From Thermosipho sp. (in: thermotogales) (lineage in GTDB: Bacteria; Thermotogota; Thermotogae; Thermotogales; Fervidobacteriaceae), in contig JACDOA010000002.1 of the NCBI GenBank assembly GCA_017656335.1, positions 186,001-250,000 on the forward strand: 64,000 bases of DNA, in the 5' to 3' direction. The notes under the pieces were generated by a model. It was not told where the DNA came from, did no database searches, and saw nothing but the letters and a program-made list of their open reading frames with translations. A program made the translations under genes and the position numbers. Numbering within the stretch: the first letter of the stretch is position 1; each line of letters opens with the position of its first letter. This document shows, piece after piece, positions 17,371-22,627 of this stretch.

Positions 17371-17975
17371 TGGTTAAAGAATACAATATAGTTATTACTG
17401 GTGTAGGAGGTCAAGGAATTTTAACCGCTGCTAATCTTTTAGGATGGACTGCCTTAAGAGAAGGCTACAAAGTTAGGGTTGGTGAAGTACACGGCATGAG
17501 TCAACGCTTTGGAAGTGTCATTTCTTACGTAAGGTTTGGTGAAAATGTATATGGTGCAATGGTTCCTGAAGGAAAAGCAGATGTAATATTATCATTTGAA
17601 CCAGTCGAAGCATTAAGATACATCAATTATTTAAAAAAAGGTGGGCTTGTTTTTACAAATTCAAGACCTATTTGGCCTGTTCAGGTATCTATGGGATTAG
17701 CAAAATACCCATCCCATGAGGAAATTAAAAGAATAGTTGAAGAAGATTTTGAAGCAAAATATATTAGTTTTGATGCCGAAAATCTTGCAAAAGAAGCTGG
17801 AAATGTTATTTCCACCAACGTTGTTTTAATTGGCGCGCTAACTCAAACTCCTGATTTTCCTTTATCTCCAGAAACTATACGTGAAGTTATAAAAGTCAGT
17901 GTTTCACCAAAGGTAATTGAATTAAATTTAAAAGCTTTTGAATTGGGACTAAAAAAAGCTAATAGTTTGTTGTAA
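17370..17975 (+). CDS. iorB: Indolepyruvate ferredoxin oxidoreductase, beta subunit
   Basis: A 201-residue gamma-type domain of 2-oxoacid:ferredoxin oxidoreductases, with the N-terminal [11 protein letters not shown] motif and the conserved [13 protein letters not shown] segment that contacts the cofactor. It forms the two-subunit enzyme with IorA. The ATG shares one base with the iorA stop and has AAGGAGGCG ahead, so the subunits are translationally coupled. A strong terminator follows. Confidence 0.95.
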
Positions 17976-21642: not shown

Positions 21643-21804
21643 ATATCTAACTCTTATTGTTAGAATACAAACTATGGCCCTCAATTGTCTTCTTATCTTC
21701 TGAAGATAAGTTCAATCCCTCATAGGCAGAATACAGACTTCTTTGGTTTATACTCCAACACTCAGTCAAATTTAGCTTCAATCCCTTATAGGTAAAATAC
21801 AAGC
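21643..21804 (-). CRISPR. Relic CRISPR array: three decayed 30-nt repeats with two 36-nt spacers
   Basis: Three related units lie at 21643-21672, 21709-21738 and 21775-21804, an exact 66-base period. The second and third share TTCAATCCCT, then ATAGG, then AATACA; the first keeps only the last ten bases (GAATACAAAC) and scattered positions. Read on the minus strand, units two and three end in GGGATTGAA plus a variable final pair, close to the ATTGAAAC end of type I-B/III repeats of thermophiles. The most decayed unit is then distal to the leader, the usual pattern. No cas genes are present and each unit has substitutions, so the array is probably dead. Confidence 0.72.
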
Positions 21805-21871
21805 ACTTGTTAAATGACATTAAATTATTTTTTTACGTTATTAATTGGAATTTTTTGCTAAATTAGTTTCT

Positions 21872-22627
21872 TCAAATCGCTCTATCTAATCCTTTTTCTT
21901 TAACCTTTCTTGCGTTTTTACGGATTTGTTTTGATAAAAATTTCCCAAACATTACTGCCAAAATATATGAGAATGGGTCCGTAAAATATTTGTAGTAAAA
22001 AGTTTTTTTGATAAGGTTGTTTTCTTTCCAATATTTCTTGTCAATTTCCATTAAATTACTTGCCATTGCTTTTTGAACTTGAAATCTAAATAATTTGTTA
22101 ATTCCTATATATTTTGTAGAATTTCCTTCCATTGCTTTAATGAAGCTTTTTACTTCTTGTTCTTTAACTATTCTACTTTGAGATATTCTTCTTCCTATTT
22201 TTCCACCTTGTACCATTCCCCAAGTTGTTGTAATATTCTCAAGGTATCTCAAAACAAAGTTTAAAGAACTTCCTGCAGTGGTAGCAACTAAAAGAACGGG
22301 TTTTCCGATTAACGGAGGTCTATGATACCATCTACAAGTTCTATCTAAAAATTTCTTTAAAAGTCCCGAAACATTTTCAATGTATACAGGTGTTCCAATA
22401 ATTAAGCCATCTGCTTTTTTAATTTTATTCATTAATAACTCTGCCTCATCTTTTATCACGCAATAATCTTTCTTTATACATACTTCACAACCCAAACATT
22501 CATTTATGTTAAAATCTTTTAAATTAACAATTTCACTTTCATAAGGTAATTTTTCAACAATATTTTTAAGAAGTTGGTATGTCCTACCTTTTCTAGCACT
22601 TCCATTTATTACCAAAACTTTTTTCAT
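21872..22627 (-). CDS. Flavodoxin-fold NAD(P)H-dependent FMN reductase / iron-sulfur flavoprotein-like
   Basis: A 251-residue protein beginning with V-L-V-I-N-G-S-A-R-K-G-R-T, the FMN phosphate loop of the flavodoxin_2 / Isf family. A compact cysteine cluster, C-L-G-C-E-V-C-I-K-K-D-Y-C near residue 45, matches the [4Fe-4S] site of iron-sulfur flavoproteins. G-T-P-V-Y near residue 80 is the flavin-ring contact. The C-terminal ~90 residues are basic and lack a recognised domain. The electron partner is unknown. It stands alone, 43 bases downstream of a phosphoesterase gene. Confidence 0.8.
   Translation of the reverse strand: MKKVLVINGSARKGRTYQLLKNIVEKLPYESEIVNLKDFNINECLGCEVCIKKDYCVIKDEAELLMNKIKKADGLIIGTPVYIENVSGLLKKFLDRTCRWYHRPPLIGKPVLLVATTAGSSLNFVLRYLENITTTWGMVQGGKIGRRISQSRIVKEQEVKSFIKAMEGNSTKYIGINKLFRFQVQKAMASNLMEIDKKYWKENNLIKKTFYYKYFTDPFSYILAVMFGKFLSKQIRKNARKVKEKGLDRAI

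Follow-up and report, generated by a model that had tools for sequence, protein, structure and literature searches.

Between mutL and a flavoprotein gene, a Thermosipho genome carries a short stretch (positions 21643-21804; Table 1) of three repeat units and two spacers. Very probably, this relic is all that is left, dead and orphaned, of a Csh1/Csh2-type I-B CRISPR array: its last three repeats and two spacers. The window, i.e., the whole stretch of DNA analyzed, spans 64,000 nucleotides (positions 186001-250000 of contig C2 in genome G000). Here, we establish the periodicity of the units, the family to which the repeat belongs, its many copies in relatives, the absence of cognate copies from the genome assembly, and the restriction of the interval to its own lineage. 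From the same material, we infer the direction of transcription, an order of events, and the loss of function.

Table 1. Features of the relic and its right-hand neighborhood (window positions)
Feature	Position	Strand	Remarks
Unit 1	21643..21672	minus (probable transcribed strand)	Most decayed repeat; probable leader-distal terminal repeat; stands in register (-66 relative to unit 2); no Rfam match
Spacer 1	21673..21708	minus	36 bases, length from unit positions; no protospacer found
Unit 2	21709..21738	minus	Decayed repeat; RF01315 26.3 bits (gathering 37)
Spacer 2	21739..21774	minus	36 bases, length from unit positions; no convincing protospacer
Unit 3	21775..21804	minus	Best kept repeat, probably leader-proximal; RF01315 38.6 bits (gathering 37)
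Short AT-rich stretch at the expected leader place	21805..21871	.	Leader not recognized
Flavoprotein gene, NADPH-dependent FMN reductase family	21872..22627	minus	PF03358, E 1.6e-27

The sequence-only reading had described three 30-base units and two 36-base spacers repeating with a period of 66 bases, with units 2 and 3 sharing 23 of 30 positions. Our recount gives the same values: start-to-start spacing is 66 and 66, and units 2 and 3 agree at 23/30, while unit 1 agrees with each of the others at 20/30. Regular direct repeats separated by two unlike 36-base spacers are the layout of an array. The near-identical repeats that are expected of a working array are not found, given pairwise identities of 20, 23, and 20 of 30. 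The unlikeness of the stretches between the units also led us to reject a plain 66-base tandem repeat.

Chance periodicity is rejected by a scan of the window and by resampling. When offsets of 50-90 were scanned, the relic supplied both the best 30-base pair (24/30, at 21706; next best, 21) and, at a summed identity of 43, the top triple of equal period (next best, 36). Across 40 first-order Markov resamples, the maxima were 23 for pairs and 39 for triples, and the relic exceeds all of them. A pattern built from units 2 and 3 has two matches in the window versus 0.02 expected. Unit 1 is weak by itself and not significant; it counts through standing in register. Specifically, it matches the repeat of family member G006, discussed below, at 19/30, a level reached by 7 of 127,942 window 30-mers, the three units included. 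That four other 30-mers equal unit 1 is what can be said for the view that the locus is not a CRISPR at all and arose by chance or from some other periodic repeat. We regard that view as extremely improbable given the exact register, the unlike inter-unit stretches, the Rfam match, and the presence of same-repeat arrays in relatives; the latter two findings refute it outright for units 2 and 3.

The repeat belongs to a known CRISPR family, both by its match to Rfam CRISPR-DR2 (RF01315) and by the occurrence of the same repeat in the arrays of relatives. Unit 3 scores over the Rfam gathering threshold and is the only match at that threshold in the whole window; unit 2 scores under it. The full model is covered. 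Allowing at most one mismatch, the relic pattern is present in 6 of 20 family genomes: G011 (178 copies), G015 (279), G006 (40), G008 (25), G003 (1), and the window's own genome, G000 (2). A control search with the reversed pattern gave no match in any of the 20. The four genomes with many copies (25-279) carry intact versions of the repeat. Csh2, the Cas7 of Csh2-type I-B systems, scores over its cut-off in four of the 20 genomes, and these are the same four; the odds of such a coincidence by chance are 1 in 4845.

The closest comparison is G006, in which a type I-B array matching RF01315 lies beside genes for Csh1-type Cas8b, Csh2-type Cas7, and Cas5. By eye, the open reading frames of this locus also include cas3, cas4, and cas1, the last in two pieces; the two neighboring frames (L076, 7702-8741) look like one gene split mid-way. 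The G006 array shares with the relic a 30-base repeat and spacers of about 36 bases (mean 35.9). Its repeat is identical to unit 2 at 23/30 and to unit 3 at 25/30. The differences are that in G006 the repeat GTTTCAATCCCTCATAGGTAATATGCAAAC recurs exactly 39 times, with variants of it at one end of the array, and a cas locus adjoins it, whereas the relic has three unlike units and no cas genes beside it. In G003, a member of the same genus as the window, a single repeat copy, matching unit 2 at 25/30, stops 5 bases short of where its contig ends; Csh2 had no match in that genome. All three units have AATACA where G006 and G003 have ATGCA, so the relic comes from its own variant of the repeat. 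Three findings support the earlier proposal of a degenerate CRISPR array: the Rfam match, the many copies of this repeat in four genomes of the family, and the Csh1/Csh2-type I-B cas locus adjoining the G006 array. The proposal had named as its refutation the lack of any related repeat in genome and relatives alike; this was not what we saw.

Direction can be read from the repeat ends. As had been proposed, units 2 and 3 end on the minus strand in the handle plus a variable pair (GGGATTGAACT and GGGATTGAAGC); unit 1 has not kept the handle. According to the accessible part of PMC4869251, ATTGAAA(N) at the repeat 3' end marks array direction, and mutations accumulate at the end far from the leader. 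In the relic, the minus-strand ATTGAA handle places the leader to the right, and the array was probably transcribed from the minus strand, with unit 1 as its leader-distal terminal repeat. Decay is greatest in unit 1, as that part of PMC4869251 describes for array ends. Unit 1 differs from the three-unit majority at six positions, all in the outer 18; in the transcribed direction, positions 1-12 are preserved and the handle end is lost. The stretch at 21805..21871 showed no similarity beyond that of shuffles to the flank of the G006 array or to the leader of the array on contig C6 of the window's own genome. Between genera, however, leader sequences show little conservation in general.

In units 2 and 3, we counted changes foreign to both the G006 and the G003 repeat. 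At inner positions 3-18, a cut chosen after the data had been seen, unit 2 has none and unit 3 has one; outside those positions, the counts are 5 and 4. These near-intact inner positions could be read as constraint, against the interpretation that the relic is dead.

The state of the window's own genome (1.79 Mb, 33 contigs, 98.7% complete) bears directly on whether the relic could function. It had been suggested that the array is either dead or served in trans by a distant cas locus, and that the genome be searched for the intact repeat and for cas operons. We find no intact relic repeat. Only two copies of the relic repeat are recognizable, and at up to three mismatches there is no further copy except one stretch on contig C7, with three mismatches to a looser pattern. 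Csh2 is not found above its cut-off (171.55) in the 33-contig assembly. Cas1 has one match, on contig C6, within a I-B locus encoding Cas6, Cas8b, Cas7, Cas5, Cas3, Cas4, Cas1, and Cas2 and accompanied by an array of 24 exact repeats GTTTTTACATTACCTTGTAGGAATTTAAAT. The earlier statement that no cas genes lie within 64 kb agrees with these results for the models tested: the sole Cas1 and the sole Csh2-like matches are on that other contig, and matches to the Cas10 palm also lie outside the window. The Cas8 of the C6 locus (L006, 9414-11213) is a divergent Cas8b: PADLOC gives a single match, to Cas8b, while at E 0.001 neither Pfam nor NCBIfam gives any. By eye, transposase-like open reading frames are present on the same contig (L006, 18966-19793).

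The C6 locus is the obvious candidate for serving the relic in trans. In such a scenario, the worn repeats would be processed by its Cas6 and the two guides loaded into its Cascade. A complete I-B locus with 24 exact repeats is indeed present, and its repeat is related to the majority sequence of the relic units (21/30). However, compared with units 1, 2, and 3 singly, the C6 repeat matches at only 15, 18, and 19 of 30, and the 8-base handles differ (ATTTAAAT at C6 versus ATTGAACT and ATTGAAGC in the relic). Against the Csh2 model, the C6 Cas7 reaches 69-71 bits, well short of the cut-off, which we read as placing the C6 system in another I-B branch than the kin of the relic. Finally, the relic units are unlike one another, and no leader is recognized. 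We therefore consider service in trans unlikely. Of the two earlier suggestions, death is favored: the sole cas1 locus serves another repeat, and the intact relic repeat is absent from the assembly. With 33 contigs at 98.7% completeness, a cognate cas locus hidden in an assembly gap is improbable but conceivable. If a live array with the relic repeat sat in such a gap, copies should show at contig ends, on the pattern of G003, and we found none. The sequence-only reading had also likened the handle to those of types I-B and III. The I-B part stands, as the kin of the relic are type I-B. The type III part is set aside, with the two palm matches in this genome to Cas10, which marks type III, reaching only 25.8 and 19.9 bits (cut-off 27).

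A comparison of the spacers with phages and plasmids, which had likewise been suggested, yielded no protospacer there or in viral contigs. Among phages, no match covered >80% of either spacer, and the best had E about 1. Against plasmids, the whole array used as a query gave one match only, at E 5. In viral contigs, 19-base spacer cores had no match, nor did a piece of spacer 1 other than its last part. Two 18-base pieces of spacer 2 matched 12 and 3 contigs, with at most 23/36 identity across the spacer, a value also reached by unrelated stretches of the window. Many genuine spacers have no known protospacer. With respect to self-targeting, BLAST revealed no other match to the spacers in the window's own genome.

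A different way in which the locus could matter is as a regulatory mini-array under selection, of the CreTA type or similar. The notion would be that Cas6 of the cell cuts the worn repeats and that the guides direct Cascade to host promoters or other targets. The available portion of PMC9458426 describes CreTA as typically having few, ectopic, degenerate repeats, as the relic does, and the relic's unit 1, with its beginning kept and its handle end lost, resembles the second CreTA repeat described there. Other traits given in that portion of PMC9458426 differ. CreTA is physically linked to a CRISPR-Cas locus, whereas the relic has no such linkage, the cas genes of its genome, with the single Cas1 match, being on another contig, C6. 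The first CreTA repeat is the more diverged one, whereas the first transcribed repeat of the relic is the best kept, the opposite order of decay. The worn last repeat is, by the accessible text of PMC4869251, the ordinary fate of array ends. Nor was a target found: with ten seed positions, spacer 1 matched once in the window, at 17863 (16/36 overall), and spacer 2 never, which is about the level of chance. No seed match fell in the neighborhood of the relic, where a CreTA guide would partly match the promoter of a toxin RNA next to it; outside the window, the genome was covered by BLAST. We judge a regulatory role, too, to be unlikely.

The position of the relic speaks to its history. In five relatives (G001, G002, G003, G010, and G014), a phosphodiesterase gene directly follows mutL; in G006, G007, and G012, no phosphodiesterase match lies behind mutL. 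None of these eight relatives, inspected from among 19 found, carries either the relic units or the flavoprotein gene behind mutL. The interval with the relic between mutL and the phosphodiesterase gene is thus specific to its own lineage among the eight inspected, and we rejected the idea that the relic is an ancestral part of the mutL locus. The direct gene order in the five relatives indicates that the relic and the flavoprotein gene are an insertion in the lineage of the window. Homologs of the flavoprotein gene exist in another genus, in G012 (L127, 1455-2214) and G007 (L128, 1390-2000). They lie elsewhere, without a repeat in their vicinity, and stops or frame breaks interrupt them. No repeat above 18/30 was found in the scanned half, 17 of 34, of the flavoprotein-like loci (L106 and L127-L142, several overlapping). 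The possibility that the array and the flavoprotein gene travel together is unsupported by these 17 loci.

Under the reading we prefer, that of a dead remnant, a minus-strand array with its leader beyond 21804 and unit 1 as its last repeat would have settled between mutL and the phosphodiesterase gene within its own lineage. The assembly shows neither the rest of the array nor the cognate Csh2-type cas genes. Point changes would then have eroded the repeats while the 66-base spacing was retained. The relic probably makes no working crRNA today. As a fossil, it would show that its lineage formerly possessed, or acquired part of, a Csh2-type I-B system of the kind that other genera of the family carry today. 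The present I-B system of the lineage uses another repeat, and such turnover is familiar. Most likely, then, the relic is dead: a real but ordinary genomic fossil of little novelty. It would gain importance only if crRNAs came from it.

Parallels exist in the literature. The available part of PMC5294841 reports that, in Streptococcus pyogenes, isolated CRISPRs were judged to be orphans because their repeats differ from those of live systems. Like the relic, those arrays stand apart from cas genes and do not share the repeat of the live array; the relic repeats are further decayed than the orphan arrays as described in that part. Within Thermosipho, the portion of PMC6211235 at hand reports cas3 as disrupted or absent in several genomes. 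We found no description of the relic locus itself in the accessible portions of the literature.

Some minor features of the locus and its flanks deserve mention. The interval that contains the relic showed no terminator-like site. A match in G060 to the right flank of the relic appears by eye to be AT-rich coding sequence, and a BLAST search of the window's own genome gave a match on contig C19. Finally, a hairpin (21692-21710) with a perfect 8-bp stem and a loop of three bases occupies mostly the end of spacer 1 and reaches into the start of unit 2; it is one of 20 perfect hairpins of that size within the window.
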